56,439 nucleotides of DNA. Source: a virus. Made by a program: the position numbers and the translations under genes. The stretch is taken from IMG/VR virus record IMGVR_UViG_3300034374_008412, positions 1-56,439 of that record; one strand, written 5' to 3'. The notes beneath the pieces are model-generated. The model saw only the letters and a list, made by a program, of their open reading frames with translations. It did no database searches and was not told the origin of the DNA. Positions 12,221 through 33,773 of this stretch are shown in pieces (within the stretch, counting starts at the first letter, position 1; each line of letters begins with the position of its first letter).

Positions 12221-12352
12221 TTATTTACCAATCTTAATTTTCAATCCACTCTTTTTGATTTTAAAATAAGAATAAACCCCAATTCCTGCGAATACAGAAA
12301 TAGCAGTTGCTACTAAAACAATTTTCTTTTGTTTATCTGTCATACCTTTCAT
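12221..12352 (-). CDS. Small single-span membrane protein (43 aa)
   Basis: I start this at ATG 12352, 4 nt after the stop of the upstream gene; a longer frame to 12511 would overlap the DUF5754 gene by 155 nt and is not credible. The product has a basic start (MKGMTDKQKK), a membrane span (IVLVATAISVFAGIGVYSYF) and a basic tail, the same plan as many small proteins in this block. Probably a virion or envelope membrane protein. Confidence 0.6.
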   Translation of the reverse strand: MKGMTDKQKKIVLVATAISVFAGIGVYSYFKIKKSGLKIKIGK

Positions 12353-12356
12353 TATT

Positions 12357-12635
12357 TTACCATAAAAGTTTGTCTGCGTACCATCCGTTTGAACCTCTTT
12401 TATGTCTGTTGTTGTTATGTCTTTTTTTGTATGCTTTTCTTCTTTCATCTGCGTAAGCCTTTCCTTTTGTTTTAATGTATGTAGGATAGTCGCCATATCC
12501 AATAGCACCAACTGATGCTACCTTCTTACCATTCTTAAATACATCAATTTTCTTTCCCTTAACCCTGCTTGGCTTTACTTCAACTCCAAGTTTTTTAGCT
12601 TGTCGTTTCGTGTATTGAGTAATAGTATATGCCAT
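12357..12635 (-). CDS. DUF5754-like protein shared with eukaryotic giant viruses
   Basis: This 92-residue basic protein matches my memory of the DUF5754 family, known mainly from giant viruses and related elements of eukaryotes: VKPSRVKGKKIDVFKNGKK, then VGAIGYGDYPTYIKTKG, a basic RRKAYKKRH helix and a C-terminal GWYADKLLW. Its function is not known to me. Finding it in a bacterial virus that appears to carry a membrane and an A32-like ATPase is notable. The identification rests on the GYGDYPTY and YADKLLW signatures. Confidence 0.65.
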   Translation of the reverse strand: MAYTITQYTKRQAKKLGVEVKPSRVKGKKIDVFKNGKKVASVGAIGYGDYPTYIKTKGKAYADERRKAYKKRHNNNRHKRGSNGWYADKLLW

Positions 12636-12638
12636 ACC

Positions 12639-12800
12639 TTAGTTCTTTAAGTCTTTTTCCTCTAAGTCTTCAATTTGCATCCTTGTAATCTTAATGCGAT
12701 AATATGTATGAATACCCGTTAGAAGTAAAACTCCAATTCCTAAAATCGTTGCTATCTCCTTTCCTCTTTTAGTCTGTAAAAATTGTATTAAATTATTCAT
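12639..12800 (-). CDS. Small single-span membrane protein (53 aa)
   Basis: ATG at 12800 opens 53 codons ending TAA at 12639. The basic start (QTKRGKE) is followed by one span (IATILGIGVLLLTGIHTYY) and a charged tail (MQIEDLEEKDLKN). It abuts the DUF5754 gene (3-nt gap) and follows the methyltransferase-like gene by 2 nt. Confidence 0.6.
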   Translation of the reverse strand: MNNLIQFLQTKRGKEIATILGIGVLLLTGIHTYYRIKITRMQIEDLEEKDLKN

Positions 12801-12802
12801 AA

Positions 12803-13405
12803 CTATTGCTTTATATAACTACCCCACGCAACATTCAAAAACGTATCTTGCATTAAGGGTTCTAAATTATATCTACTTAAACTTTCTTTTATTGCTCCTT
12901 CATTACATTCAAAGTAATCCCAAACATTTAATTTAGTAAAAGAACTTAAATCTATTGCAAAGTCGTGTGCAAATATTATATCATTTGTATTTAAGAATTT
13001 ACTGAAATGATTAAATTCAGAAATCTTATCTCCACCATCACAAAATAGAATAGTATTCTTTTTACTACTATTTAAAATAAGTTCTATTGTATCTGTTTCA
13101 AAAACATTTTCTTCGTAAAACTTTACTTTTTTTACTTTATTTGATATTTGTCTTTGCCCTATTGAAGCATCAACATCAAAAGAATGTATTGTAGTATTAT
13201 CAGATAGTTTATGATTATCTAAAAAGGTTGTAAAACCACCTCTAAAAGTCCCTATCTCAATTATAGTGTCTATAATAATTTCATTAGAATTTAAATAGTC
13301 ATATAGCTTATCAAATGCACTTTCTATCTGATAGTGCTGACAAGTAAAAACACCATTTATATTACAATGGTTTCTCATATCATTATTTAAAACTACCTCT
13401 AACAT
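12803..13405 (-). CDS. Class I SAM-dependent methyltransferase-like protein
   Basis: From ATG 13405 (overlapping the upstream stop as TAATG) the protein has 200 residues. EIGTFRGGFTTFL at about 50-62 is the SAM-binding loop of a Rossmann methyltransferase, HSFDVDA follows at the second strand, and ILFCDGGDK resembles motif IV. The arrangement is like the Methyltransf_24 / cephalosporin-hydroxylase type. Such enzymes modify small molecules or sugars; a role in decorating virion or host-surface glycans would fit the glycosyltransferases at 33.8-36.1 kb but is not shown. Confidence 0.7.
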   Translation of the reverse strand: MLEVVLNNDMRNHCNINGVFTCQHYQIESAFDKLYDYLNSNEIIIDTIIEIGTFRGGFTTFLDNHKLSDNTTIHSFDVDASIGQRQISNKVKKVKFYEENVFETDTIELILNSSKKNTILFCDGGDKISEFNHFSKFLNTNDIIFAHDFAIDLSSFTKLNVWDYFECNEGAIKESLSRYNLEPLMQDTFLNVAWGSYIKQ

Positions 13406-14067
13406 TATTTCATTATTATTATACCACCAATTAAGCCAACTCCTAACCAAAAAACTTTTCGGTCATAGAATTTCTTTTCATCTTCAATTATTACGTTTTT
13501 CATATCAATAGTAGATAAGTAAGGGTTTGTATTTTCTAACTTTACTATTGGAATACTCTTTCTAAATATACCACCCGATTTATTTCCAATAGTTAATTTC
13601 ATTTCATTTGGTATAACAATACTATCAACCAATAATCCTTCCTTTAGAATTAATCCATTAAAAGAATAGTGTTCTTTTGTTAAATTAAACCTTTTAGGAA
13701 CTTCTATTACTCCTTTTGGATAAATTGTATCACTTATATATATAGTTTCAGTATAAGGAACGGGAACACTATCAATTCTTATTTCAGTAATAGTCTTTAC
13801 TTGTCCTTTTATTTTTTTTAGGTTTTCTATTTCCAATATACCTAATTCTATTGCATCTTTTTGAGATATAATTATTTGCTCTTGCTCGGCTATCTTAACA
13901 CTATCCTTTGATAGTTTTTCTTCAAAGAATTGATTATCTAATTGTAACTTTCCTATTTGTTTTTTAAATGAAGAAAGTCGCACTTGGGTATTGCATAGTT
14001 GCCAAACCAAAAACGCAACCACGCACCCAAGTACGACAAGCAGAGATTTTTGTATATCTATCTTCAT
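13405..14067 (-). CDS. Membrane-anchored coiled-coil protein (spanin-like)
   Basis: A 220-residue protein with an N-terminal span (LLVVLGCVVAFLVWQL), a coiled coil to about residue 95, a beta-rich periplasmic-type region (VPVPYTETIYISDTIYPKG) and a second span at the C-terminus (VFWLGVGLIGGIIIMK). This design is common among Bacteroidota phage lysis-cassette proteins and resembles an inner-membrane spanin or a structural tether. It lies beside the cell-wall enzymes, supporting a lysis or entry role. Confidence 0.7.
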   Translation of the reverse strand: MKIDIQKSLLVVLGCVVAFLVWQLCNTQVRLSSFKKQIGKLQLDNQFFEEKLSKDSVKIAEQEQIIISQKDAIELGILEIENLKKIKGQVKTITEIRIDSVPVPYTETIYISDTIYPKGVIEVPKRFNLTKEHYSFNGLILKEGLLVDSIVIPNEMKLTIGNKSGGIFRKSIPIVKLENTNPYLSTIDMKNVIIEDEKKFYDRKVFWLGVGLIGGIIIMK

Positions 14068-15223: not shown

Positions 15224-15339
15224 TTTGCTTTCCCCCTTTCAAATTTACTTGCTCTACCCTTTCTAACTAAAAAATAAAGCAAAGATGTTCCTACTAATAA
15301 ACCTACACCACCAATAATATATTTATCTGACTTCTTCAT
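15220..15339 (-). CDS. Small single-span membrane protein (39 aa)
   Basis: ATG 15339 opens 39 codons ending TGA at 15220, overlapping the next gene start by 4 nt and the muramidase stop by 4 nt. The product is one hydrophobic span (IIGGVGLLVGTSLLYFLV) with a basic tail (RKGRASKFERGKAK). The tight overlaps support it being real. Confidence 0.65.
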   Translation of the reverse strand: MKKSDKYIIGGVGLLVGTSLLYFLVRKGRASKFERGKAK

Positions 15340-15935
15340 TTTTTTACACCCTTATAAATAAAATAACCCATCGAACCTAAAACAATTACTCCTAAAGCTA
15401 AAAACATAGCCTTTTTAGAAGTAAAACCACCTGCATACTTTATGTCCTCTAACCTACGCATCCAACCTTCTCTAAAAGCAGGATTACCACTTGCATATCT
15501 ATCAGCACGTTCTTTATAAATATCATCAAATAAAGTCTTTTGATTAGCCTTATTAATAACCTTTGCATCGAAGTTTGTAAAAGATATGTTTTGCTTTGAC
15601 AAAGCCTTTTTAACCATTGATTTAGTTCCATACAACCCGTGATTAACAGAAGCATCATATATTATCAATGCAACAGATTGATTTTTTAGTTTATCTCCAT
15701 CAATCTTATCCCAATAGTTCTGTTTATATATCATAGATGCAGTTTTAGGAGAAAGGTTTTTCATATCCGAAATAGTTATAGGTCTGCCTAAATATGCTTT
15801 AAGTATTGGAGCAGAAATACCATAGTTTGTTCCTATCAGTTTACCATCTACCCAATTACCATTATCTTTAGGATTATTTGTATAACCCCCTTCCGACTTA
15901 CCTACCTTTTTATGTGCATCTACAAAACTTGCCAT
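15336..15935 (-). CDS. GH108-type N-acetylmuramidase with C-terminal membrane anchor
   Basis: A 199-residue lysozyme-like protein. The N-terminal catalytic motif is EGGYTNNPKD (15-24) with E15 as the general acid, then TNYGIS (37-42), both typical of glycoside hydrolase family 108. DASVNHG follows near 94-100, and the C-terminal helix pair completes the domain. Unlike usual members it ends in a membrane span (about 175-196, AMFLALGVIVLGSMGYFIY), so the enzyme is tethered. It cleaves peptidoglycan glycan strands, either for lysis or, if in the virion membrane, for entry. Confidence 0.9.
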   Translation of the reverse strand: MASFVDAHKKVGKSEGGYTNNPKDNGNWVDGKLIGTNYGISAPILKAYLGRPITISDMKNLSPKTASMIYKQNYWDKIDGDKLKNQSVALIIYDASVNHGLYGTKSMVKKALSKQNISFTNFDAKVINKANQKTLFDDIYKERADRYASGNPAFREGWMRRLEDIKYAGGFTSKKAMFLALGVIVLGSMGYFIYKGVKK

Positions 15936-17326: not shown

Positions 17327-18277
17327 TTATACGTTTTGATAATCATTTGAATAATTTATTAATACATCTGTACCATCATAATACAGAACTAAAGTAGTTA
17401 TTTCACTTGCTCCTTGTCCTATTGAAATAGTACCACTTGGTGCTTTACAATTACCACCCGATATAGTCCAAGTAGTAATATCAACGGGAGAAGATGATTT
17501 CTGTATTATCTTTATAAAATATGTTGCTCCTGCTTGTAAATTTGTAAATGTAACACTAACATTTGAAGTAGCAGAAGCTAAATCAAGTGGTTGGCTATTA
17601 CCATTATTACCATCAATAGTTACTGCGTTTGCAGTAATAGTATTTGTAGCACTTTGTGGAGAATATATATAACCACCTACTATTGAACCATTTATATCTA
17701 TTGAATTTGGTACATCATTAGTTCTACCAATAGCAGAAACTAAAAGACCTTGACATATTGTACCATTTGTTTTAATAACAATACCAACATTTTGAATTAA
17801 ATCATTTGAACCCGTAGGTTTTGTTTGAGTTAAAGTTCCCGTTTTAGAAACATATAAAACATCTCCTTCTGTTAATCCCGTAAAACCCGTTAAATTCTCA
17901 TTATAAACACCACTTACTACTCCATAGTTATCTTTTGTATCAGAAGTGTTCATTTCTTCTTTAGCAATACCAATACAAGGCATTTTTGAAGGGTCGTCTG
18001 CATCAGCTATTCCAACTAATATTCTATTAGAACCACCTATTTCTCCTTTTGAATACAATGGAGAACCTATTGGTATTGTAGCACCTTCATCGTTTCTAAC
18101 TTCAATCATATTAACTGAATTAAAGTTATTTTCCCAATTTGTACCATTGTATTTTAATACTTGTTGGGTTTCAAGAGAAGTTAAGGTAACATCTGTTAAA
18201 TCACCTAAAGAAGTTGCACCACCCGATGATGAACCACCACTTCCGAAAACTGAAAAGAATTGGTTGCTACGTTCCAT
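17327..18277 (-). CDS. Spike- or fibre-like protein with Gly/Ser anchor
   Basis: The 316-residue protein starts MERSNQFFSVFGSGGSSSGG, nearly identical to the start of the protein at 19369. A central part resembles phage fibre repeats (GDLTDVTLTSLETQQ, LKYNGTNWEN) and the DUF2190-like capsid-decorating pattern (IPIGSPLYSKGE). The C-terminal 110 residues are closely related to those of the 19369 protein (IDGNNGNSQPLDLASAT, IIQKSSSPVDI, LVLYYDGTDVLINYS), probably a trimeric beta domain that binds the host. It most likely projects from the capsid vertices. Confidence 0.75.
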   Translation of the reverse strand: MERSNQFFSVFGSGGSSSGGATSLGDLTDVTLTSLETQQVLKYNGTNWENNFNSVNMIEVRNDEGATIPIGSPLYSKGEIGGSNRILVGIADADDPSKMPCIGIAKEEMNTSDTKDNYGVVSGVYNENLTGFTGLTEGDVLYVSKTGTLTQTKPTGSNDLIQNVGIVIKTNGTICQGLLVSAIGRTNDVPNSIDINGSIVGGYIYSPQSATNTITANAVTIDGNNGNSQPLDLASATSNVSVTFTNLQAGATYFIKIIQKSSSPVDITTWTISGGNCKAPSGTISIGQGASEITTLVLYYDGTDVLINYSNDYQNV

Positions 18278-18286
18278 AATTATACT

Positions 18287-18568
18287 TTATACATCTATCG
18301 TTGTCCATTCCGTAGAATCGGGGTAGATTTCTATTAAACTATTTCTTTGTTCTTCTGTTAATCCTGCTAATGCAGGAGCAGAATGTCTTACACCTTCCAT
18401 AATAAAAGGCATAGCTACTTGTGTTCCATCTACCTTCTGTATTGTTCGAGTAGAATATTTAATAGCATTATAAGTAGGGTCATCAGCAAGTATTGATGCT
18501 TGAACTGAAGCATCGGTATCTTCCCATCCTTGCCAATCCGATATATCAAAAGGTAAATACTTAACCAT
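18287..18568 (-). CDS. Small spike-associated protein
   Basis: A 93-residue acidic protein with several Trp residues (ISDWQGWED, DSTEWTTIDV). It lies between two spike genes, with a 1-nt overlap upstream and a short gap downstream. Not recognised. It may be a chaperone or accessory of the fibres, like the small proteins that follow tail-fibre genes in tailed phages; this is inference. Confidence 0.6.
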   Translation of the reverse strand: MVKYLPFDISDWQGWEDTDASVQASILADDPTYNAIKYSTRTIQKVDGTQVAMPFIMEGVRHSAPALAGLTEEQRNSLIEIYPDSTEWTTIDV

Positions 18569-19365
18569 TATAATCCATATTTTGTATTAATATAACTATC
18601 TATTTCTGTTTTTTCGGAAGCAGATACCTTATGGTCTATTAAGATAGTTTCAGCTATCATTCCACCAAAACCTCTAAGACTTACTGAATCTCCACCACCG
18701 AAACCTAACTTACCATTTGAACTTGGAATTGCAGTTGTTCTCGTATCGGTAGAAGTACCTACTCCTGCTATTGTTTGAGTTAATGTTCCACTATCCAAAT
18801 CTTTATCCCAATATCCAATCATATAATACCAAGTATTTTTAACTATATCTAATCTTGTTAAATCAGTACCATCATCTCCTAAAAACCAATGTGATTCATC
18901 AGATGTTCTTCTTAAATATTGAGCATAACCTTCATTAGCAACTGAAGTTTCTGTATTACCAAAAATCATATGAATATCACTTGTATTATTCATATCTGTA
19001 TTCCACATAAAAACTGTTACCATAGTAACTGCATTATCTAAATCATAGACATTTGGACTTGGTAAACTTTCAGAGAATAAAAATGTTTTTTCACTCCCTA
19101 AAAATATTTCTTGCGATGTTTGAATTGCAGGTTGTCCGTTAATTTGATTATCGAACCATTCGGGTTGATTAACACCCGTTGATTGTGTAACATCTATATT
19201 TGTAGCAGACCTATCTTCAATTCTACTTACCTTATTAGAGCCATCTTTTGTTACTCTTGTAGAATCGGCATCGTACCAAGCAATTATGCCCGTTACGTTA
19301 GGTAAATCTCCACCTCCACCACTTCCCGATGAACCATTATTAATAAATTGAGGAATATGTACCAT
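18568..19365 (-). CDS. Spike protein with LamG/concanavalin-type domain
   Basis: A 265-residue protein: a Gly/Ser-rich N-terminus (QFINNGSSGSGGGGDLP) similar in character to the anchors of the neighbouring spikes, then a single jelly-roll lectin-like domain. The start of that domain (IIAWYDADSTRV), the VFMWNTD and WYYMIGYWD strands, and GGMIAETILIDHKVS near the end follow the LamG/pentraxin pattern. Such domains bind glycans, so this is probably a receptor-binding protein. Confidence 0.75.
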   Translation of the reverse strand: MVHIPQFINNGSSGSGGGGDLPNVTGIIAWYDADSTRVTKDGSNKVSRIEDRSATNIDVTQSTGVNQPEWFDNQINGQPAIQTSQEIFLGSEKTFLFSESLPSPNVYDLDNAVTMVTVFMWNTDMNNTSDIHMIFGNTETSVANEGYAQYLRRTSDESHWFLGDDGTDLTRLDIVKNTWYYMIGYWDKDLDSGTLTQTIAGVGTSTDTRTTAIPSSNGKLGFGGGDSVSLRGFGGMIAETILIDHKVSASEKTEIDSYINTKYGL

Positions 19366-19368
19366 ATT

Positions 19369-20955: not shown

Positions 20956-20989
20956 ATTTTTACCTTTAATTTTAGGCAAGACAATAAAA

Positions 20990-24657: not shown

Positions 24658-24807
24658 TTATTTTTTTATAAACTTATTATAACCATAATAAGCAATTACT
24701 AAAGCACCACCAATCATAATTAATTTTTTGTGCTTCATCCAAATCTTTTGTAATGGACTAATTTTATCCACTACAACTACTTCCTCTGTTACGTTTGTTT
24801 CTTCCAT
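24658..24807 (-). CDS. Small single-span membrane protein (49 aa)
   Basis: ATG 24807 opens 49 codons ending TAA at 24658. The start is acidic (MEETNVTEEVVVVDK), then a basic helix and one span (LIMIGGALVIAYYGYNKF) and a short basic end. The ATG overlaps the upstream stop. One of the series of C-terminally anchored virion-type proteins. Confidence 0.65.
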   Translation of the reverse strand: MEETNVTEEVVVVDKISPLQKIWMKHKKLIMIGGALVIAYYGYNKFIKK

Positions 24808-25367: not shown

Positions 25368-25410
25368 AATTTTTAATTTTATTGTTACTTATTTATTACT
25401 TATTTATTAC

Positions 25411-25899
25411 TTATTTTCTTGGTCTTAAAGCAAAGAAACCTACTAAACCGATTGCTAATATACTACCAACAATGATTAAACCTTTTTTACTTCCTAATCC
25501 TGCAAGTTTTTGTCCTTGGTCAGTTGGCATACCATTTTCAGTAGTTAAATCATCTCCCCCAACGATTGAATCTCCAACATCAGCAATAGTGTTACCAATT
25601 TTATTTCCAAGTTTTGAAGCCTTACATTTTAAAACTGCACTTCTTCTTGACATACCTTTGTCTTGGTAAAACTGAACACAAGACTTTTTATCAGTTGGAG
25701 CATCAGCACTACTACCAACATCATCCCCTCTTTTTTCTAACCTTTTAATTTTTCTTGCTTGTCTTCTTGCTTTTGCTTTTTTACCGAAAAGATTATCAAA
25801 ATCTTCATCAAAATTAGAATCATCTATATCTCCATTAAAATCAAGCATTTGAGATTCTTCTCCATCCCAACCATCAAAATTTAAAAATTCATTTTTCAT
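25411..25899 (-). CDS. Virion-type membrane protein with acidic FDG motif
   Basis: This 162-residue protein is a likely paralogue of the 24807 product: acidic N-terminus (LNFDGWDGEESQMLDFNGD, then DEDFDNLFGKKAKARRQ), basic middle, a conserved KSCVQFYQDKGMSRRSA segment and a C-terminal span (LIIVGSILAIGLVGFFAL) ending RPRK. The shared LFGKK hinge and FDG motifs suggest duplication. No outside family recognised. Confidence 0.75.
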   Translation of the reverse strand: MKNEFLNFDGWDGEESQMLDFNGDIDDSNFDEDFDNLFGKKAKARRQARKIKRLEKRGDDVGSSADAPTDKKSCVQFYQDKGMSRRSAVLKCKASKLGNKIGNTIADVGDSIVGGDDLTTENGMPTDQGQKLAGLGSKKGLIIVGSILAIGLVGFFALRPRK

Positions 25900-25908
25900 A
25901 ATTACTTA

Positions 25909-26661
25909 TTATTTGTTTGTTCTTCTTTTTCTTAATATAAATAAACCACCTATTATAACTACACTTAAAACACTTGCACCAATAATAAGTGTTTTTGTTC
26001 TTTTACTTTTTTCTTCTTGTTGCTTTTTCAAAAACCCTGCTTGTGCTTCTGCTCCTTCTTTATTAGCTTCTGCTTCTAATTTAGTCATTCTTGTTTTTGA
26101 AATTGCTCCTGCCATAGCACCTAAAACTGCTCCACCCGTTGCTATTAAAGATGAAGTAACAGCAGGTTCTAAATTTGAAAATGAAAAGTCGGGGTTTTCT
26201 TCTAAAAATATCATTTCATCATCTGTATAATCAATGAAATTACTTTTTAAGTCAAATTTAGCTTTACAATTTGCTCCACATCCTAAAGGTTTTTTGTCTT
26301 TTCCTGCACTCATACCTTTTAATAAAGCATCCTCGTTACCACCAAGACTTAACCATTTTCGGGTTGCTCTTTTCCATTCAGTCGTTTGTTCAGATTTTGC
26401 TCTGTAAAGCCTTGATGCCATCCCTCTAAAGTTGAATCTTAACAAAGTAAGAAAAGCACCTCTCGGAATAGCTAAACCAACTTTTTTAGCACCTCTACCT
26501 ATTGCAGAACCACCTAATTCAGTTCTACATTGTATTCTTGCTTGTCTTTTATTTTTTCCTTGTGCCTTTGCTTCATCTTCGCAAGACCTTCTTTTTTTAC
26601 CCTTGAAGAAATTATCAAATTCATTTAATTCTTCGTCTATATAATAAGTTCCGTTTTTCAT
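25909..26661 (-). CDS. Virion-type membrane protein
   Basis: A 250-residue protein of the same family plan: short acidic start (DEELNEFDNFFKGKKRR), a basic Cys-containing middle (SCEDEAKAQGKNKRQARIQC; later KKPLGCGANCKAKF), an Ala/Gly-rich hydrophobic segment (ATGGAVLGAMAGAISK) and a C-terminal span (LIIGASVLSVVIIGGLFIL) with a basic end. The Gly-rich segment could form a second membrane hairpin. The link to 24807 and 25411 rests on the shared KKPLG and GKK motifs. Confidence 0.75.
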   Translation of the reverse strand: MKNGTYYIDEELNEFDNFFKGKKRRSCEDEAKAQGKNKRQARIQCRTELGGSAIGRGAKKVGLAIPRGAFLTLLRFNFRGMASRLYRAKSEQTTEWKRATRKWLSLGGNEDALLKGMSAGKDKKPLGCGANCKAKFDLKSNFIDYTDDEMIFLEENPDFSFSNLEPAVTSSLIATGGAVLGAMAGAISKTRMTKLEAEANKEGAEAQAGFLKKQQEEKSKRTKTLIIGASVLSVVIIGGLFILRKRRTNK

Positions 26662-26670
26662 AATAAATAA

Positions 26671-27456
26671 TTAATCAACATCTAATCCAAATTCCATATC
26701 ATCGCCATCAAAATCAGAAAATTTTCTCATTTTAGTATTCACTCTTCCTGCCATAGCTTTTGCTTTTGCTTCTAATTGTGCTTTATAAGGACTTGCAGAA
26801 GGCTTTGCAATAGTAGTCGGTCTTGATGTAGCTATTGGTCTTACAGATGGTGGTCTTACAGATGGTTTTTTATATATAGTTGGTTTACCAAAAATAGCAT
26901 TTCCAACAGACGACACACCTTTACCAATATTTCCAAACAATCCCGTACCCGTTGGTTTTCTAAAGCCACCACCACTAATAGGTTTTGGACTTGTACCACC
27001 ACTAATAGGTTTTGGACTTGTACCACCTCGAATTGGGTCGCCTAAAGGTACGATTGGTAAACTTGGCTTATCGGGTATATCAATTCCAATAGGTCTATCG
27101 GGTCTTAACCAAGAAGGAGTATCATTTGATGGTTTTCCTTCACTTGGCTTATTATCGCCAATATTGACATTAAGGATGCTTCCTGCTCCCGTTACACCAC
27201 CACCCGTAGCAATATCAACATCAGAACCTTGTCCTGCTTCACTTTCTACATCTCCACCTACCGATGGTTCAGATGGCATACCGAAGCCACCACCACCACC
27301 ACCACCTAAAGATTCTTCTTCTTCGGGTAGTCCTTCTGTTTCCATTTGAGAACGCAACAAGGCTTCTTGTTGTCTTTTTCTTTTTAAATAGATATATCCA
27401 CCACCTAATAAAAGTAGAAGTATAAGTAAATTCCTATTTGTTTTATCCTTTGCCAT
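26671..27456 (-). CDS. Single-span protein with Gly/Pro-rich repeats and acidic FDG tail
   Basis: A 261-residue protein with an N-terminal span (LLILLLLLGGGYIYL) after a basic start, then a long low-complexity region rich in Gly, Pro and Ser that includes two perfect copies of a nine-residue unit GTSPKPISG (DNA repeat 26968-27021). A second set of PPSVRP-type repeats follows. The C-terminus (KFSDFDGDDMEFGLDVD) carries the acidic FDG motif of the neighbouring proteins. It probably forms an extended connector between membrane and capsid. Confidence 0.7.
   Translation of the reverse strand: MAKDKTNRNLLILLLLLGGGYIYLKRKRQQEALLRSQMETEGLPEEEESLGGGGGGGFGMPSEPSVGGDVESEAGQGSDVDIATGGGVTGAGSILNVNIGDNKPSEGKPSNDTPSWLRPDRPIGIDIPDKPSLPIVPLGDPIRGGTSPKPISGGTSPKPISGGGFRKPTGTGLFGNIGKGVSSVGNAIFGKPTIYKKPSVRPPSVRPIATSRPTTIAKPSASPYKAQLEAKAKAMAGRVNTKMRKFSDFDGDDMEFGLDVD
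26968..27021. repeat. Two perfect 27-nt tandem units
   Basis: The unit begins accaccactaatagg and ends gacttgt; copies at 26968-26994 and 26995-27021 are identical and in frame, encoding GTSPKPISG repeats on the - strand. A partial third copy follows. Perfect identity suggests a recent expansion. Confidence 0.85.
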
Positions 27457-27461: not shown

Positions 27462-27866
27462 CTATTTATTATTCTTTCCGTAATAAGCTAAAGCCTTTTT
27501 TAAATCTGCTCCATCTAAATCATCTTTAAACCAAGCTATCAAATCTTCTCCATTACCAAAATTTGCATCAAAGTAGTTTTTAACCTCTATTCTTTTTTGA
27601 GAATCTAATGGGTCTAAAGTATTCCAAATTAATTTTTCGTTAGTACCCCATCCTTTCATAGCCTTATATAAGTTTTCAGCACTTTCTTTTGGATTAAATT
27701 TAGTATCTGTTCCCTTATCAACATTAGCTATACCCTTTGCAACTTCATCTATTTCATTATTATTCTTAAAAGATTTTTTACCTTTCTTTTTAATGAAAAA
27801 ATATGCTCCTGCTCCTAAAAGTCCAACAACACCTATTCCTATCGCTATTTTAATATTCTTATTCAT
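27462..27866 (-). CDS. Membrane-anchored annexin-like repeat protein 1
   Basis: A 134-residue protein: N-terminal span (IAIGIGVVGLLGAGAYFFI), basic linker, then one annexin-like repeat from about 62 to 130. It has AENLYKAMKGWGTNEKLIW, the Gly-x-Gly-Thr turn of the type II calcium site, a five-helix length, and DLIAWFKDDLDG, placing an Asp about 42 residues after the turn as in true annexins. Annexin repeats bind acidic phospholipid through calcium. It probably sits in the virion membrane. Paralogues at 28342 and 28764. Confidence 0.75.
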   Translation of the reverse strand: MNKNIKIAIGIGVVGLLGAGAYFFIKKKGKKSFKNNNEIDEVAKGIANVDKGTDTKFNPKESAENLYKAMKGWGTNEKLIWNTLDPLDSQKRIEVKNYFDANFGNGEDLIAWFKDDLDGADLKKALAYYGKNNK

Positions 27867-27871
27867 ATACT

Positions 27872-28336
27872 TTACTTATATGCGTTTCTAAAATCACTTT
27901 GTTTTTTAATCAAATCATTAATACTACTTGATTTTCTTCCCATTATTACTGAATGAACATTATCTGTTTTTCTTCCCCAAACACCATCTTCTACTAAATA
28001 AGAAAAATCAGCTATTTTTTTTCTTCTTGCTTCTTTTGAAGAATCAGAATTTTTAGGAGATTTTCTTGCTATGTTAATAATGCTATTCAAAAGTTTTTGT
28101 GATGATTTAACCGATTCTCCCCTTGAACCTCTACTCAGCTTTTTATTCTTATCAACTGAATTAGAATTTGTTTTAGAAGTAGAAGTGGAAGTAGAAGTAT
28201 TAATATCGCTTGAAGTAATTGAATCTACGTCAAAATTTGAATCTTTCTTTAAAAACTTTTTATATAAGAAAAAACCACCAACACTAATTAATGCTAATGA
28301 ACCTATACCTATTGCTATTTTTGTACCTTTTTTCAT
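27872..28336 (-). CDS. Membrane-anchored protein with peptidoglycan-binding-like domain
   Basis: A 154-residue protein with an N-terminal span (IAIGIGSLALISVGGFFLY), a Ser/Thr-rich linker, then a domain with LSRGSRGESVKSSQKLL (about 67-83) and VEDGVWGRKTDNVHS. This matches the PG_binding_1 pattern, in which a Gly-x-x-Gly-x-x-Val helix is followed by a DG.(F/W)G..T loop. It would dock a membrane protein on the cell wall during entry or exit. It lies between two annexin-like genes. Confidence 0.7.
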   Translation of the reverse strand: MKKGTKIAIGIGSLALISVGGFFLYKKFLKKDSNFDVDSITSSDINTSTSTSTSKTNSNSVDKNKKLSRGSRGESVKSSQKLLNSIINIARKSPKNSDSSKEARRKKIADFSYLVEDGVWGRKTDNVHSVIMGRKSSSINDLIKKQSDFRNAYK

Positions 28337-28341
28337 ATTGT

Positions 28342-28761
28342 TTAATTAAAATATCCTTTTGCTTTAGCTAATTCGCTTCCATCTAAATCATCTTCAAACC
28401 ATTGAAATAAAGATTCTCCTTTACCTAAATAGGCATCAAAATATTGTTTAACACTATTTCTTTGTTCTTTATTTAATGGCTCTAAAGTGTTCCAAATCAA
28501 ATTTTCGTCTGTACCCCATCCCTTCATAGCTTTGTATAATTGTTCAGCAGGAAATTTAGGGTCAAATTGAACCTTTGTGTTTTTACCTTGTAAGTTACCT
28601 TTACTTTCTTTTGATAGAATAGATTTATTTCCAAGTTTACGAAGAACTTTACCTCTACCCGTTACTTTTTGATAAACCTTTAAACCAACATAAGCTACAC
28701 CAATACCTAAACCTAAATAGATAGCTAATTTAATTTTTCCTTCTTTTGTAGATATATCCAT
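28342..28761 (-). CDS. Membrane-anchored annexin-like repeat protein 2
   Basis: A 139-residue paralogue of the 27462 protein: N-terminal span (LAIYLGLGIGVAYVGLKVY), basic linker, and one annexin-like repeat with AEQLYKAMKGWGTDENLIW, then LFQWFEDDLDGSEL. The GWGTDE turn is closer to the animal annexin consensus (GxGTDE) than in copy 1. Identity with copy 1 over the repeat is high, indicating duplication around the 27872 gene. Confidence 0.75.
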   Translation of the reverse strand: MDISTKEGKIKLAIYLGLGIGVAYVGLKVYQKVTGRGKVLRKLGNKSILSKESKGNLQGKNTKVQFDPKFPAEQLYKAMKGWGTDENLIWNTLEPLNKEQRNSVKQYFDAYLGKGESLFQWFEDDLDGSELAKAKGYFN

Positions 28762-28763
28762 TA

Positions 28764-29264
28764 TTAAAAGTTTGTAATTTTACTTGCTAAAGTTAATTGT
28801 TCCTCATCATCTAATTCTGACTTTAATCTCTCAGATAATGATTCTCCACCTTGTATTCTTGAATATGATTCTGCTACTTTTGATACATTACCTTTACTTC
28901 CTAATTGCTCAAAAACACCATAAATAGCTTCTTCATCAGTTCCCCAACCATCAACTGCATCTTTAATTATATTAGCATAAGATACTGCTTGTTGTTCAGT
29001 TATTGATTTACCACCATTAGTTTTATACCATAATGGCGACCAATATCTTCCCGACCAAAGACTATCGTTTACCTTATCCATTTCTTTTGATTCGGGAGTA
29101 TCAATAACACCCGTTTTCTTTAGGATAGGTCTAACAATACCAAAATAGGCAAAACCTATTACTACGGGTATTCCTATCACATATAAATATACTTGTGGTG
29201 GAATCATCCCTAAAGCACTTGCTCCTGCTTGACCTTGTGTCATACCCTTTCCTTTAACTGCCAT
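28764..29264 (-). CDS. Membrane-anchored annexin-like repeat protein 3
   Basis: A 166-residue, more divergent member: a hydrophobic span near 22-45 (PPQVYLYVIGIPVVIGFAYF), then AVDGWGTDEEAIYGVFEQL and, about 40 residues later, LSERLKSELDDEEQL, the helix D-E pattern of an annexin repeat. It differs in having a longer N-terminus and a longer linker. It overlaps the metallopeptidase gene by 11 nt. Confidence 0.7.
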   Translation of the reverse strand: MAVKGKGMTQGQAGASALGMIPPQVYLYVIGIPVVIGFAYFGIVRPILKKTGVIDTPESKEMDKVNDSLWSGRYWSPLWYKTNGGKSITEQQAVSYANIIKDAVDGWGTDEEAIYGVFEQLGSKGNVSKVAESYSRIQGGESLSERLKSELDDEEQLTLASKITNF

Positions 29265-30024
29265 ATTCCCAATTTTTTATAAAAGCATCTAACTTTTCAA
29301 ATCTATCTAAACTTTGTTTACTATTTGCTGACTTAAATACATTTAAGAAAACATTATATGCATCTATTCTTGGATAACCTAATGCTAAATAAATTCTAAG
29401 TCCATTTAAGTCTGCTTCAACCTCACTACTCGGAGTTTTATTAACGTAATAATGCGAATACTCGTGAAGTAAAATAGCCATTCTCATAGGTATAGAATAC
29501 CTTTCAAATGCTTTTTTTGACACTTCTATTCTACCCGTTAATTGACTTATCCTTGCAGGAGTTTTAATTGGCTTATTGTCTGCCTTGCTCCTTACTTGGT
29601 CGTAATAGTCAATTTGAAATTTACCATTATCACTAAAGTAACTTTCTCCTTTCATACTTGCAGGAAGATAACTTGCTTCCTCTGAAAATTCTTGTGCGAA
29701 ATTTACAAAAGCCTTTGTCTTCCTTGACATAGGTATTCTTTTAGTGCTTTTTAAAGGCAATATTTCTATTGCTTTTATTTTAAACCCATCATTATTTAAA
29801 GGTGTTTGCCCATCTTTATAAACTAACAACCTTGAAACATTTGCACTTTCGGGTAAACCGATATAATATATTTCAGTACCATTAACCCTTGCGTACCTTT
29901 TAGAGTAATATGTTTTTGGTGCATTTGCATCACATATCTTTATCCATAGTTTTTCTGACTTTGGAGTAGATATTACTACTTTTATAGTACAAGCTAATTC
30001 ATCTGTTTTTATATCTCTAACCAT
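29254..30024 (-). CDS. Zinc metallopeptidase (HExxH) of the virion module
   Basis: Start taken at ATG 30024, 1 nt after the stop of the upstream gene; a longer frame begins with GTG. The 256-residue protein has an N-terminal beta-rich region (about 1-95) and a C-terminal zincin domain with LLHEYSHYYVNK (H187, E188, H191) and, ten residues on, SSEVEADLNGLR whose Glu/Asp supply the third zinc ligand. No signal peptide is visible. It is embedded among virion membrane genes, so it may mature structural or polyvalent proteins, or attack the host envelope. Confidence 0.75.
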   Translation of the reverse strand: MVRDIKTDELACTIKVVISTPKSEKLWIKICDANAPKTYYSKRYARVNGTEIYYIGLPESANVSRLLVYKDGQTPLNNDGFKIKAIEILPLKSTKRIPMSRKTKAFVNFAQEFSEEASYLPASMKGESYFSDNGKFQIDYYDQVRSKADNKPIKTPARISQLTGRIEVSKKAFERYSIPMRMAILLHEYSHYYVNKTPSSEVEADLNGLRIYLALGYPRIDAYNVFLNVFKSANSKQSLDRFEKLDAFIKNWEYGS

Positions 30025-30025
30025 C

Positions 30026-30292
30026 CTATAACGATGCTTCTGCACCTTCTAATTTACCACTCTTATTTAATTTATAAATACCATATATAGCTAAAGCAAC
30101 ACCGAAAGCAATCATCAAATTTCTTTTTCTTTTATTTCCGATTTCACTCATAGTTGGAGTATTACCAACTGCGTTTCTATATGTATTTTCATCGTGAACT
30201 TCTAATTGACCTTCTTTTTGTTGTTCAACTAACCATTCTTTAAATGGCTTTGAAGTTCCACTCATTTTGTATTTTTGGTTTGCACTTGACAT
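30026..30292 (-). CDS. Single-span membrane protein
   Basis: An 88-residue protein: soluble, polar N-terminal two-thirds (KPFKEWLVEQQKEGQLEVHDE), then a basic stretch (NKRKRN), a span (LMIAFGVALAIYGIYKL) and a short polar end. Unknown. Plan shared with other C-terminally anchored proteins here. Confidence 0.7.
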   Translation of the reverse strand: MSSANQKYKMSGTSKPFKEWLVEQQKEGQLEVHDENTYRNAVGNTPTMSEIGNKRKRNLMIAFGVALAIYGIYKLNKSGKLEGAEASL

Positions 30293-30294
30293 AT

Positions 30295-30519
30295 CTACTT
30301 GTTTTTAATAATTAATCTCCCTGCTACTACACCAACTAATATTCCAATCCAAGGTTTCTTTCTTAAAGCAATAGAACCAATTAAACCGAGTACCCCACCG
30401 ATAACTGCTCCTTGCATATTATCTTTGGAGTTCTTTAAGATTTTATTTGAAAGGTCTTTATTTCCAATATCCTTAACAACCTCAATCTTTTGTTTAAATT
30501 CCTTGCTATCAGTTTTCAT
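30295..30519 (-). CDS. Small glycine-zipper membrane protein
   Basis: A 74-residue protein with a charged helical start and two Gly-rich hydrophobic segments (GAVIGGVLGLIGSIAL and WIGILVGVVAGRLII) separated by a basic loop (RKKP). Glycine-zipper hairpins of this type insert in membranes and can form oligomers. Resembles the 14269 protein in plan. Confidence 0.7.
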   Translation of the reverse strand: MKTDSKEFKQKIEVVKDIGNKDLSNKILKNSKDNMQGAVIGGVLGLIGSIALRKKPWIGILVGVVAGRLIIKNK

Positions 30520-31148
30520 TAATTTCTACTTCTTCTAATTAAAAAAGCAGTCAAACCGATAACTGCAATAGCACCTACTCCAATACCAATTATTAATCCC
30601 GTTTTAGATTTTTTTGGTTGATTATCAAATTGTTGATTTTGATAAGTTTGCATTTGTGAATCTACTTGCTCGTTACCACCTCTATTAAATAAACCACCAA
30701 AAATTGCAGTACCAATTTGTGCGATTGAATCTGCGTTATCTTTTAAGAAGTCGCCTTTCTTTTTTTCATCGCCTTTTTTATCTTCATCAGAATCAGAATC
30801 AGAATCAGCATCAGCTACATTTTTATCTTTTTTTCTATTAAAGAAGTTTGCAAATTCTTCTGTTTTATCCTTTTGTTCAATAAGGATTAAAGCAGATATA
30901 TTGCGTATTAAAGCCTTTGCTTTAGGACTTCTTTTTTCTTTAAGTCTTAAAACTGCTTTTCGCAATATTAATTTTAACTTTTTTGGAGAAGCATCATCAT
31001 CTACTTCAAAACCTGCATCTCTAAATGCTTCAATAACTCCTTTTCTATTATTTACTAATAACCAAGCTAATTGATTAAGAACAAGTCTTTGTCTTTTTCT
31101 TTTACCTTGTCCTTCAACACCTCTTATATTTCTTCTCTTACTAATCAT
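30519..31148 (-). CDS. Basic virion-type membrane protein
   Basis: A 209-residue protein with a very basic helical N-terminal half (SKRRNIRGVEGQGKRKRQR), an acidic centre (DADSDSDSDEDKKGDEKKK) and a C-terminal span (GLIIGIGVGAIAVIGLTAFLI) ending RRSRN. The basic half could bind genomic DNA and anchor it to the inner membrane face, as proposed for some membrane-containing phages. Not recognised as a family. Confidence 0.7.
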   Translation of the reverse strand: MISKRRNIRGVEGQGKRKRQRLVLNQLAWLLVNNRKGVIEAFRDAGFEVDDDASPKKLKLILRKAVLRLKEKRSPKAKALIRNISALILIEQKDKTEEFANFFNRKKDKNVADADSDSDSDEDKKGDEKKKGDFLKDNADSIAQIGTAIFGGLFNRGGNEQVDSQMQTYQNQQFDNQPKKSKTGLIIGIGVGAIAVIGLTAFLIRRSRN

Positions 31149-31158: not shown

Positions 31159-31578
31159 TTACTTTTTCAACATTAAAGCTACTCCCATAAGGACAAAACC
31201 ACCGATAATAATTGAGTTTATTGCCATTTTATTGACTACTCTATTTTCTGATTCTCCCATAGCATTATAATAAGCACTCTGTTGTTGTCCTAAAAAATTA
31301 GAATGTAAATCTCTATTCATAGCTAATGAGTTTATTTCCTTATCTTTTGAAGAACAAGAACTACATATACCTTCTAAAAGTTCTCTATCGGGATGAATTT
31401 CTGCAAGGCTATTCAAACCTTTTTCCCCATAGTTTCTTACAAAGTGCTTTATTTGGCTTTCAAGTTCTTCTGTATTTCTCGCTTTTCTATACGAATCATA
31501 CTTGTTCAAAGTAAAATGAACATCAGCAGGAACTCTCTCTGCCAAATATTTAAACATTGTAATTCTTTCTGAACTCAT
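31159..31578 (-). CDS. C-terminally anchored virion-type protein
   Basis: A 139-residue protein with a helical soluble part, a Cys cluster (GICSSCSSKD, about 70-79), an Asn/Gln-rich region and a C-terminal span (INSIIIGGFVLMGVALML) with two Lys at the end. The Cys pair might form a disulphide or bind metal. Function unknown. Confidence 0.7.
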   Translation of the reverse strand: MSSERITMFKYLAERVPADVHFTLNKYDSYRKARNTEELESQIKHFVRNYGEKGLNSLAEIHPDRELLEGICSSCSSKDKEINSLAMNRDLHSNFLGQQQSAYYNAMGESENRVVNKMAINSIIIGGFVLMGVALMLKK

Positions 31579-31711: not shown

Positions 31712-31741
31712 TTTTTATTTTTTTTAAGATTAAACAAAAAA

Positions 31742-31844: not shown

Positions 31845-32582
31845 TTATCCTCTTCTTCCTTTCAAAGCACGTAATGCACCTTTTGAAAGTTTTAAAGTTT
31901 CAGATTTTACAAGTCTTGGGTTTCCATAACCTCTAACTGCTCTTCTACCCGTTAAAGTTCTTGCAGTAGATACAGTTTCAGAAGGATAGAAGTAAATCTT
32001 CACAACTGCTGATGCTAATACTGAACTTAATACGATTGCTGTGAAACCATCAATTTTATAAGAGAACTTCACAACTACGATAGTAGATTGTTGCTGATAA
32101 GGGTCAATAGTTGGAACTAAAGTCTTTTGACTTTCATTACCATTAACATCCTTTTGAATTAATGTTAAAGTTTCTAATACTTGGTTAGCAGTAGAAGATT
32201 GGTAATAGGTTTGCCCCACTACGAAACTTTTATTCATTGACTGATACAAAAATTCTTGGTAAGTAACCCCTGCAATTCCCATTGTAATAGAAATCGCTGA
32301 CGAATTTTGCCAATTCGGAGAAGAATAAGCTAACGTACTATACGCACCTAAAATAGTACAAGGAAACGCAGTAGTCGTGTTCGTGTTTGTGATAGATACG
32401 ATGTAAGGTTGAGATGTCGGAGCAGATGCTTGTCCTACTGCCATATCAAACTCATCATCTGCGTAACCATCGAAATCATAATCTTCATCTGCAAAATCGT
32501 AGTCGTCATCCCACCCATCTGCATTGAAGAAATTTTCGTTAGCTTCTTCTTGTGCTTCTGAAAAATATTTTCTTAAATCCAC
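31845..32582 (-). CDS. Candidate major capsid protein
   Basis: A 245-residue protein in three parts. Residues 1-50 are extremely acidic (FFNADGWDDDYDF, DEDYDFDGYADDEFD) with FDG/DGW motifs shared with nearby membrane proteins. Residues 55-200 are strand-rich (TYQEFLYQSMNKSFVVGQTY, LTLIQKDVNGNES, then IDPYQQQ, KIDGFTAIVL, VKIYFYP). Residues 205-245 are basic. The middle resembles my memory of capsid proteins of FLiP-like and other jelly-roll viruses (a Pro-Tyr-Gln-x-Gln stretch before a DG strand). Own promoter, own terminator and position beside the ATPase fit a capsid. The core is short for a double jelly roll, so a single jelly roll is possible. Confidence 0.55.
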   Translation of the reverse strand: MDLRKYFSEAQEEANENFFNADGWDDDYDFADEDYDFDGYADDEFDMAVGQASAPTSQPYIVSITNTNTTTAFPCTILGAYSTLAYSSPNWQNSSAISITMGIAGVTYQEFLYQSMNKSFVVGQTYYQSSTANQVLETLTLIQKDVNGNESQKTLVPTIDPYQQQSTIVVVKFSYKIDGFTAIVLSSVLASAVVKIYFYPSETVSTARTLTGRRAVRGYGNPRLVKSETLKLSKGALRALKGRRG

Positions 32583-32646
32583 TTTTGATAAATTTTTAAT
32601 AATTAATAACTAATTTCTTTTTTTTTCTAATTCAATCCTTCCTTGA

Positions 32647-32766
32647 TTATTCAGCAGAAGCAGACTTTTTTTCAGCCAATTTCTTTTGAACCATTGATGC
32701 GATAATTACACCTCCTGCAACACCTAATGCAGTAAATACAATTCCCATAATTGCTTTCTTGTCCAT
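32647..32766 (-). CDS. Small single-span membrane protein (39 aa)
   Basis: ATG 32766 opens 39 codons ending TAA at 32647: MDKKA, one span (IMGIVFTALGVAGGVIIASMV) and a basic, Ser/Ala-rich tail (QKKLAEKKSASAE). It is the first gene of the capsid transcript. Small membrane proteins co-transcribed with the capsid are common in membrane-containing viruses. Confidence 0.65.
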   Translation of the reverse strand: MDKKAIMGIVFTALGVAGGVIIASMVQKKLAEKKSASAE

Positions 32767-32833
32767 AATTTCAAAATTATTTTTTAGATTAATAAAATGT
32801 TTTTTAATGCCTACTATTCAAATAGCGACACTC

Positions 32834-32887
32834 CAAATTTATTTTATTATACTCAATTAATAGCTATTAATATTATTTTTGAAAATA
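32834..32887 (-). promoter_or_regulatory. Capsid-operon promoter region with operator-like palindrome
   Basis: On the - strand, TAAATTTG (32834-32841) fits the -7 box. Upstream (32870-32887) lies TTTATT-N6-AATAAT, and the 23-nt stretch containing it is repeated at the divergent control region (52833-52855). A perfect -33 TTG at the usual distance is not present. The region from 32767 to 32960 holds no gene that I can support. Confidence 0.5.
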
Positions 32888-32892
32888 AAAAA

Positions 32893-32919
32893 AGCCTATT
32901 GCATTTTTTACAATAGGCT
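32893..32919 (-). terminator. Terminator after the ATPase gene
   Basis: AGCCTATTG (32893-32901) pairs with CAATAGGCT (32911-32919), with a T-run on the - strand side (complement of 32882-32892). It ends the transcript that carries the ATPase and glycosyltransferase genes, and isolates the capsid promoter. Confidence 0.85.
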
Positions 32920-32960
32920 GATATTCAATAGATTATATGTTGCAAATAAATTGCTACATT

Positions 32961-33773
32961 TTATTTATTTGGAATGTACATTTTTACCATTAAATCTTTA
33001 ATATGTTTATGTGCAGTTTCGGGAGTAAACTTTAGCTTACCTTTTGCATCTCTCATATTTAGTAAAGGTTTAACTTTTTTATTGTAATTCAAAGAAATGT
33101 ATTCATCAATAGCTTCTAATATTTGTTTTTTGCTATAATTACCATAGATATATTCATCATCACAATTATATGTAACGTGAAATCTTTTATTTCCATTATG
33201 ATATTGGTTATTAACCATAATCTCTACTAACTTCAATGCTTCGTGCCTATCATCAAACTTTTTATGATGTTTGTCAACTGAATCAGAATTTTTGTGAAAT
33301 CTAATCCAATTTAAGTTTTGCCATACTTTAGGCGATACACGACCAATACTTTGAAAGTGCATAATAATATCAGTAGAGGTATGACGATTAGTACATAAAG
33401 CACCAATAAGGTCATTCGGAGCATAGTCAGAAACATATTTATTGACATCTTCTATTAATAATAACCCCCCTTTGTAATTATCTAAAATAAGTTTTAGTGT
33501 ATCTGCAATTTCAGTTAAACTCATTTTTGAACCATCGGGGTTATATGGTCTTATTCGTCTAACTTCTACTTTTGGATGGTGGCTAAATACTTTAACGTGG
33601 GAAATTGATAAACCCTTTACATTTTCAAATTCATCGTTTACATCAAGTATTAATGCTCTACGAGGTCTAATTGTTGAACCACCTTTAACATATTGCTCTA
33701 TGACTTGCATAGTAGTATATGTTTTTCCTATTCCTTTTTTACCAACTGCAACCCCTAATTGTGCTTCTCTCAT
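32961..33773 (-). CDS. Packaging-type P-loop ATPase (FtsK/HerA, A32/P9-like)
   Basis: A 270-residue ATPase with Walker A GKKGIGKT (11-18), Walker B LLLIED (104-109), TNRH (128-131) and a sensor Gln (141, FQSIGRV), followed by QNLNWIRFHK. This order and compact size match the genome-packaging ATPases of membrane-containing icosahedral viruses. The filamentous-phage Zot-type ATPase is the main alternative, but that family has a membrane span and no capsid neighbour. It would pump DNA into preformed capsids. It overlaps the upstream glycosyltransferase gene by 4 nt. Confidence 0.8.
   Translation of the reverse strand: MREAQLGVAVGKKGIGKTYTTMQVIEQYVKGGSTIRPRRALILDVNDEFENVKGLSISHVKVFSHHPKVEVRRIRPYNPDGSKMSLTEIADTLKLILDNYKGGLLLIEDVNKYVSDYAPNDLIGALCTNRHTSTDIIMHFQSIGRVSPKVWQNLNWIRFHKNSDSVDKHHKKFDDRHEALKLVEIMVNNQYHNGNKRFHVTYNCDDEYIYGNYSKKQILEAIDEYISLNYNKKVKPLLNMRDAKGKLKFTPETAHKHIKDLMVKMYIPNK

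Follow-up and report, generated by a model that had tools for sequence, protein, structure and literature searches.

An apparently undescribed lineage of probably tailless viruses of Bacteroidota

We analysed a stretch of DNA of 56,439 bases (hereafter the window), which is the whole of the IMG/VR record IMGVR_UViG_3300034374_008412, an uncultured virus classed as linear, and we consider it probable that it holds most of the genome of a tailless double-stranded DNA virus of Bacteroidota, and that its lineage, as yet unnamed, includes small integrated members. A preliminary description, made from the sequence alone, had seen in positions 12221-33773 a tailless, membrane-containing virus of a lineage that it did not recognise. 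Nor did our searches meet a known one: none of the open-licence PMC papers listed describes the lineage, judged by titles and abstract starts, no phage record showed DNA similarity to window positions 32900-38200, and tblastn of two ATPases, the capsid candidate, the F2 peptidase and the Fluviicola capsid and ATPase proteins against 50,697 phage records gave no relative, with very near records possibly omitted. This is apparently an undescribed group of bacterial viruses. Of the three outcomes that the preliminary description had named as refuting it, all were looked for and none was obtained.

A two-sequence ATPase profile found 54 related viral loci, with ATPases 45-81% identical over the best segment, and one close relative of the window was found. 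Gene content was compared in 12 long records, namely the window and 11 relatives fetched at length, one of them short by 1,560 bases. Clustering of open reading frames (ORFs) gave eight families present in all 12 (F0, F1, F2, F3, F4, F5, F6 and F7) and two, F8 and F9, present in 11 each; the gene order F7-F6-F5-F4-F3-F2, with other genes interspersed, is kept in every one of the eight maps drawn (8 of the 12 records). The conserved module reaches position 37688 with F7 and F9, past 33773, where the block of the preliminary description had ended. In the window, F2, F5 and F7 have no PHROG match and F2, F4 and F7 no Pfam match, F5 having only a sub-threshold row at 0.06.

Packaging ATPase and search for a tail module

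The compact FtsK/A32-like ATPase of the preliminary description is confirmed at 32961-33773 (minus strand) as one P-loop protein of 270 residues (F6), in which Walker A, Walker B (LLLIED) and a RH..D(I/V)...Q motif are kept in 37 of 37 aligned sequences (the window and 36 of the 54 loci; fragments, near-duplicates, some full-length loci and L052, which has a stop, were omitted). Its AlphaFold2 model (pLDDT 88.6) brings B204 of STIV2 and STIV into the first 15 Foldseek rows, with a best E-value of 3.8e-10, and the best fold by VIA-align is that of STIV2 B204 (Z 19.3, root-mean-square deviation 2.4 over 186 residues), followed by HerA at 16.8, VirB4 at 13.0 and Zot at 11.7. By its model F6 thus groups with the packaging ATPase B204 and not with Zot or VirB4, so that the check on this point, which could have sent the protein to the Zot or conjugation proteins, came out for the packaging class.

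Comparison of profiles points in the same direction. Among 263 ORFs of six reference phages, the F6 profile placed the packaging ATPases of P23-77 (45.4), PM2 (31.9) and PRD1 (25.7) at ranks 1 to 3, M13 gp1 fourth (23.4), and lambda gpA at 15.0. The score of P23-77 alone exceeds all 100 shuffles of that ATPase (maximum 32.0), and F6 against a four-sequence profile of Helvetiavirae ATPases reached 52.2, the maximum in 60 column shuffles being 24.5. The Zot-like ATPase of inoviruses falls behind in both comparisons (Z 11.7 versus 19.3 for B204; M13 gp1 23.4 versus 45.4 for P23-77). Against the sequences of solved structures the best row of the F6 profile was only ClpB, at 0.028. As a separate observation, a 101.8 kb contig encodes a second P-loop protein of 227 residues (L122, G031:C1 4889-5572), with 22-28% identity to the packaging ATPases of the 12 records.

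The earlier statement that terminase, portal and tail genes are missing is borne out by the family searches. Terminase_6N (PF03237) and Phage_portal (PF04860), searched in 28 of 29 records (G000-G028, with G028 omitted), matched in 0/28 each, and in 6 and 4 of the 14 control genomes, respectively. Among the families listed for the 83 window proteins (ten of which were scanned twice; the best 25 of 36 and 25 of 34 Pfam families, all 22 and the best 25 of 48 PHROGs) no terminase, portal or tail family was seen, apart from a phrog_2666 label on the ATPase. In G008, with 45 proteins scanned, none was seen among the best 25 of 30 PHROGs and 25 of 34 Pfam families, and no HK97 capsid family was among those listed for window or G008 proteins, no search for that single family being made. 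Terminase and portal families beyond PF03237 and PF04860 were covered by the general scans, of which the best-ranked families are listed. The large terminase subunit and the portal protein, markers of Caudoviricetes represented here by one Pfam family each, are accordingly not seen in the lineage.

Capsid candidate and its relative

The beta-rich product of 31845-32582 (minus strand; F5a), which the preliminary description took for a capsid candidate, keeps this standing; structure prediction gave a jelly-roll-type sandwich with moderate support. F5a proteins have about 230-245 residues, with an acidic N-terminus of low confidence and a beta-rich core. The model of the core (145 residues, block means 71-93 pLDDT) was built from an alignment of 33 of the 47 homologues, omitting the 21147 product, two L102 pieces, a short L011 paralogue and ten others. 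Its best VIA-align match is the coat protein of cowpea mosaic virus (Z 6.3), and further matches are to coat proteins of broad bean stain virus, brome mosaic virus, satellite tobacco mosaic virus and enteroviruses; judged from titles, 24 of the 50 entries listed are coat proteins of small icosahedral viruses. Helvetiavirae coats are not among these 50 rows, which excludes nothing. Three viral models stood just below 0.001 in Foldseek, two of these being collagen-like proteins. The F5a profile against sequences of solved structures gave a single chance row (0.55), and a Pfam scan of the 33 homologues gave five weak scattered families, the best at 0.014. The model lends moderate support to a single-jelly-roll class of fold, not to a family, and the protein is too short for a double jelly roll.

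Two further products, of 21147 and 21811, had been named beside 31845 as jelly-roll candidates. The first proved to be a distant relative of 31845 (F5b type), reached via intermediates; for the second, at 21811-22350, a search of the other 59 sources turned up no relative. Iterated searches started from 21147 and from 31845 converge on the same 57 proteins, and the F5b profile, with 21147 included, meets the F5a profile with an hhalign probability of 98.1. A profile of the 12 F5a proteins alone fails to reach 21147 at 1e-3, and the value of 4.6e-25 comes from an iterated profile that possibly already included 21147. F5b relatives occur in 8 of the 12 records, the window's own only through intermediates, and clustering places F5b on the spike side of the block in 7 of the 12; the 101.8 kb contig has it too.

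Of the promoter and terminator that the capsid gene had been credited with, the first was found, as a Bacteroidota-type TAnnTTTG box 189 bp upstream (sigma-70-type matches there are at chance, 15 versus 12.6), and the second was not, as the terminator-like hairpin precedes the capsid gene and none was found behind it. The N-terminus of the capsid candidate bears an acidic motif, F-x-N-A-D-G, that is also present in window proteins 24807, 25411 and 26671. We tried it as a general virion-sorting or cleavage tag and rejected it: the block holds 17 matches versus 7.1 expected in 12 genomes, but the capsid protein accounts for 8 of them, which leaves 9, a number close to chance.

Integrated relatives and host

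A profile scan of species genomes found five loci. Both Fluviicola chungangensis MAH-3 and CP034120 carry the core within roughly 23 kb of DNA that is flanked by a serine recombinase gene on one side and a Cro/CI-type gene on the other (Pfam domains of the element were checked in Fluviicola). The capsid gene is carried by 7 of 399 genomes drawn from the order of Fluviicola, 5 of 240 from its family and 1 of 395 from its phylum, the last being Fluviicola. Four of the eight integrated loci (Fluviicola, CP034120 and G140 twice) unite recombinase, capsid, peptidase, GH108, F7 and ATPase genes. In G034 one locus is without the recombinase and another without the ATPase and F7, in G065 only three cassette genes are left, with a stop in the capsid gene, and for G043 the analysis covers the first 20 kb of a contig of 45.6 kb. 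The integrated elements have one F5 match each.

The motif TTG-N18-22-TAnnTTTG, which we take to be the Bacteroidota-type promoter consensus, stands in 41 of 659 upstream regions of the 12 records versus 6.9 expected from mononucleotide shuffles. A Bacteroidota host, as first proposed, is supported, because integrated relatives occur in the family and order of Fluviicola and the promoters are of Bacteroidota type; the host probably belongs to Flavobacteriales.

Some observations concern the carrier genomes themselves. G140 (G140:C1) and G034 (G034:C1) hold two separate copies of the element each. A patatin-like phospholipase gene (L128:10346-11434) occurs in 5 of the 8 integrated loci, where it adjoins the recombinase gene or, in the case of G034, that of the ATPase. 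The complete chromosome CP034120.1 (L104 / G030) is labelled Glaciecola amylolytica (Gammaproteobacteria); this label looks wrong, because the record is placed in the family of Fluviicola and the 12 best-ranked matches of its 16S, in a plasmid collection, are all Bacteroidota. Metagenome-assembled genomes (MAGs) L101 and L102, labelled Gammaproteobacteria and Alphaproteobacteria, also hold contigs of the lineage, which are probably there through binning errors.

Genome ends and replication

Ends were compared in 29 records and one contig, for matches of at least 30 bases starting within 60 bases of both ends, and inverted terminal repeats (ITRs) were found in 3 of these 30: G002 (68,799 bp, repeat of 133 bp at 99%), G008 (72,545 bp, 123 bp at 100%) and G009 (67,810 bp, 123 bp at 100%). 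Because of these repeats the three look like complete linear genomes, and probably are. The IMG/VR record G022 shares the starting base of G002 and is identical to it over the 2 kb compared. Terminal repeats were not found in the other 27, the window included, which may be incomplete. A contig of 101,828 bp in a Flavobacteriales MAG, without a terminal repeat, carries genes of the lineage at about 5-79 kb, the remainder having few relatives in the set. The left end of the window may, from its sequence, be a natural terminus. As a side observation, an 11-mer, AATAGCTTAAA, starts at base 49 of the window and is also found in the G002 inverted repeat, starting there at base 42.

Polymerase and resolvase families were searched in 16 records. 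DNA_pol_B_2, looked for as a sign of protein-primed replication, gave 0/16, but no control matched either, so this is uninformative; the telomere resolvase family gave 0/16 with one control matched. G008 has matches to an initiator and a helicase loader, plus weak polymerase-type rows. For replication the virus seems to draw on the replisome of its host, adding a DnaA-like protein, RecT and an exonuclease of its own.

Membrane, spike and lysis genes

The preliminary description had counted about thirty small membrane proteins with one to four spans. Many short single-span proteins are indeed there, but in a Kyte-Doolittle scan (19 residues, mean above 1.6, proteins up to 350 residues) 18 of the 33 window block proteins have at least one span, and the maximum per protein is three. 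Over the 12 long records, span proteins make 225 of 371 (61%) in the 21.5 kb behind the ATPase gene versus 150 of 705 (21%) elsewhere, and 10 of 51 and 10 of 67 in two tailed flavobacterial phages used as controls. The spike or fibre region, proposed earlier, was confirmed at 17327-20979; no relatives of its genes were found in the other records. Lysis genes were confirmed as well; the GH108 protein of the window is 43.5% identical to a Fluviicola protein that matches GH108.

Two short single-span proteins, at 27462-27866 and 28342-28761, contain annexin repeats above the Pfam cut-off, which we note separately (PF00191 E-values are 1.3e-5, 3.3e-7 and 0.014, with a third protein included). The repeat was considered as a family trait and rejected, since two integrated relatives and one from a MAG contig had no Annexin match, and it is kept as a local oddity.

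Relation to known virus groups

The preliminary description had compared the gene set with PM2, PRD1 and FLiP, in a genome several times larger than theirs. The size difference holds (window 56.4 kb, relatives with ITRs 67.8-72.5 kb), and so does the B204/A32-type ATPase, but the closest ATPase by sequence is that of P23-77, and FLiP is without one.

Helvetiavirae/Singelaviria (Thermus P23-77 and IN93; haloarchaeal SH1 and HHIV-2), whose packaging ATPase is the closest to the lineage by sequence, share with it the A32/FtsK type of this ATPase, small hydrophobic proteins and lytic enzymes. Two capsid proteins of these viruses are vertical single jelly rolls; the candidate F5a has the size of one, and a related F5b occurs beside it in 8 of the 12 records. 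Unlike them, the lineage has Bacteroidota hosts, integrated elements with a single F5 match and a capsid candidate without detectable sequence similarity to their capsid proteins, and its genomes reach 101.8 kb versus 17.0-30.9 kb in the four Helvetiavirae records fetched, although the integrated elements of about 23 kb do fall within that range.

PRD1 and PM2 (Bamfordvirae) resemble the lineage in a B204/A32-type ATPase near the capsid gene, in membrane proteins and in lytic enzymes, and the genome of PRD1 is linear with inverted terminal repeats. Their coat proteins are double jelly rolls of 395 and 269 residues, in genomes of 14.9 and 10.1 kb, whereas F5a has one folded domain of about 145 residues, a difference which holds only if 31845 encodes the major capsid protein (MCP); no PRD1-type polymerase was seen in the lineage, in a search without a working control. 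STIV and STIV2, whose packaging ATPase B204 is the best structural match to F6, have archaeal hosts, a double-jelly-roll capsid and a much smaller genome. For prokaryotic double-jelly-roll viruses PMC8812541 gives genomes below 20 kb, a limit that the lineage exceeds. FLiP (Finnlakeviridae) shares with the lineage a flavobacterial host group and, as predicted here, a membrane-containing particle, but its genome is circular, with 9.2 kb, and its major capsid protein has 311 residues. It is a single-stranded DNA virus without a packaging ATPase, according to PMC8812541 and PMC5894146, whereas the ATPase gene is present in 12 of 12 records of the lineage and three relatives are linear with ITRs. 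The lineage probably works like a virus of the PRD1/P23-77 kind but fits no named family, and we do not place it in Helvetiavirae, Bamfordvirae, Finnlakeviridae or Caudoviricetes.

Alternative explanations and significance

Several results weigh against the reading proposed here. The particle, the lipid layer and the capsid role are predictions from genes and models. Taken alone, the F6 scores of PM2 and PRD1 are within noise, because one of the 100 shuffles of the P23-77 ATPase reached 32.0. Non-viral folds tie with coat proteins for F5a (AlgX 6.2, nucleoplasmin 5.7; CD40 ligand 4.8), its Z of 6.3 is within the range scored by common arrangements, its best PDB match in Foldseek has an E-value of 3.8e-3, with none below 0.001, and its sequence resembled none of the 23 known capsid or structural proteins compared. 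F5b was not found in four of the 12 records (G001, G013, G017, G019). The excess of membrane spans in the block is only suggestive of a virion membrane, because known membrane phages are unremarkable by the same measure (PRD1 6/20, P23-77 4/22, PM2 7/16, IN93 12/31). The window itself shows no terminal repeat and may be incomplete.

The profile phrog_2666, labelled 'terminase large subunit', matches 33 of the 37 ATPases (best 1.3e-7; that of the window at 9.2e-7, over profile positions 323-484 of 555), and this, together with holin, GH108, RecT and polyvalent genes that are common in tailed phages, would suit a highly diverged tailed phage, whose ATPase is a degenerate terminase and whose portal, HK97 capsid and tail genes are beyond recognition. 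We regard such a phage as very unlikely, given a compact ATPase of 270 residues whose model fits STIV2 B204 over 186 residues, the score of lambda gpA (15.0 versus 45.4 for P23-77), the lack of Terminase_6N and Phage_portal matches in the 28 records, and a length of only 370 residues for the longest other protein common to all 12. The polyvalent and antirestriction genes also resemble those of mobile elements, and HerA- and VirB4-like folds rank directly after B204, so one may think of an element, plasmid-like or conjugative, that uses its ATPase to transfer DNA from cell to cell. This is hardly credible in a stretch with lysozyme, holin and spike genes, with no relaxase or type IV secretion model among the families listed for its proteins, with an ATPase nearer to B204 (19.3) than to VirB4 (13.0), and with integrated relatives that carry repressor-like and recombinase genes. 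It is conceivable, but unlikely, that the virus is tailless and 31845 encodes a minor, vertex or internal protein, the real MCP, for example a double jelly roll, being another core protein; the fold support of 31845 is moderate and its capsid role comes from genes and a model. Yet no other gene common to the 12 records resembles a beta-rich coat protein: F7 is acidic and, by eye, helical, F2 is a HExxH peptidase, F0 a PAP2 phosphatase, and the remainder have 143 residues or fewer. The hairpin, moreover, parts F5a from the ATPase gene, and integrated relatives keep F5a in a fixed cassette.

For the tailless virus of Bacteroidota that we prefer, the shape of the virion, its membrane, the MCP and penton roles and a maturation step are what we infer from the gene set. 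Spikes would bind the host and a membrane-anchored muramidase would breach its wall. In the particle, the single-jelly-roll coat protein (31845) may assemble into a shell around a membrane that holds many short proteins with one span each, of which two have an annexin repeat; the coat-protein relative (21147) and spike proteins would form the vertices. The zinc peptidase (29254) could act in maturation or entry, and the B204-type ATPase (32961) would pump the linear genome into the shell. Finally, the holin and the membrane-anchored GH108 muramidase would open the cell wall and release progeny.

We also suggest, tentatively and with a chance somewhat short of even, that these tailless, membrane-containing viruses of bacteria form a separate lineage of high rank (class or above), whose linear genomes of about 50-100 kb have inverted repeats at their ends and whose single-jelly-roll coat protein is untraceable to known ones; it would descend from, or be sister to, the Flavobacteriales elements of about 23 kb. 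If this is true, few tailless viruses of prokaryotes would be larger, and the lineage would parallel in bacteria the way in which eukaryotic large DNA viruses grew. A tailless-virus core in three apparently complete genomes of 67.8-72.5 kb and in the 101.8 kb contig would revise ideas on the DNA capacity of capsids and bear on how large membrane viruses arise, and the lineage would account for uncultured virus records without the tested tail-phage markers. The related element in a named strain, Fluviicola chungangensis MAH-3, makes the lineage open to direct experiment.

Other genes of the window

The features of the window are collected in Table 1. The large block of polyvalent proteins, claimed earlier, was confirmed at about 38.7-51.3 kb. 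The F2 peptidase keeps HExxH, E208 and D212 without exception in the alignment (43 of 43 sequences). No tRNA genes were found in the window and no Rfam family reached the gathering score.

Table 1. Features of the window, by position
Position	Strand	Feature	Basis
1..167	+	Left end of window, TAnnTTTG box 39 bp before first gene; possible genome terminus	Promoter scan
3525..4223	-	F0, PAP2-family phosphatase (member assigned by sequence)	12/12 records; PAP2 3.7e-12 in scanned set
9680..12142	+	PD-(D/E)XK exonuclease and RecT annealing protein (members assigned by sequence)	PDDEXK_1 3.5e-5, RecT 9.9e-29 in scanned set; each in 9/12 records
12357..12635	-	F1, DUF5754-like, below Pfam cut-off	12/12 records; 3.6e-4, 20.9 bits versus cut-off 27.4
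15336..15935	-	GH108 muramidase with C-terminal span	Glyco_hydro_108 6.3e-22 in scanned set
17327..20979	-	Spike/fibre genes, including LamG-like protein 18568-19365	18568 product: phrog_10356 'virion structural protein' 2.8e-8
21147..21782	-	Distant shorter F5a relative (F5b type), perhaps penton/vertex protein	Iterated search
22904..23413	-	Holin candidate, three spans	Phage_holin_4_1 1.1e-10 in scanned set, assigned by inference
24169..24654	-	F8, hydrophobic N-terminus	11/12 records
24807..27456	-	Four structural-type proteins with acidic stretches; C-terminal span in three	Sequence
27462..29264	-	Four short single-span proteins	Spans; PF00191 annexin repeat in two (27462, 28342), third (28764) below cut-off
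29254..30045	-	F2, zinc metallopeptidase, candidate maturation/entry peptidase	HExxH; 12/12 records
30026..30519	-	F3 and a 74-residue protein, both small and conserved	12/12 records each (iterated hidden Markov model, HMM)
30519..31148	-	Single-span protein; relatives adjoin capsid gene in integrated elements	12/12 records (iterated HMM)
31159..31578	-	F4, single C-terminal membrane span, residue 117	12/12 records
31845..32582	-	F5a, major capsid protein candidate, single jelly-roll-like domain at about residues 60-202	12/12 records and integrated relatives
32893..32919	-	Terminator-like hairpin between ATPase and capsid genes	11 bp stem and T tract; 1 found, 0.4 expected
32961..33773	-	F6, DNA-packaging ATPase, FtsK/HerA superfamily, B204/A32 type	12/12 long records
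36152..37246	-	F7, acidic, upstream of ATPase gene; possible scaffold or packaging partner	12/12 records, 5/8 integrated loci
37248..37688	-	F9, DnaA C-terminal-like DNA-binding protein	Bac_DnaA_C 5.4e-4 in one scanned member, Pfam member assigned by inference; 11/12 records
38763..51269	-	Polyvalent-protein block: zeta-toxin kinase, ddrB-ParB, SNF2 helicase, Eco57I/N6 methylase	Family models

Apart from the genes of the table, a MoxR-type AAA ATPase and a neighbouring protein of about 500 residues (F15/F16, e.g. L064:16495-17862 and 17862-19436), which have no copy in the window, each occur in 9 of the 12 records, and bpMoxR was matched in G008.

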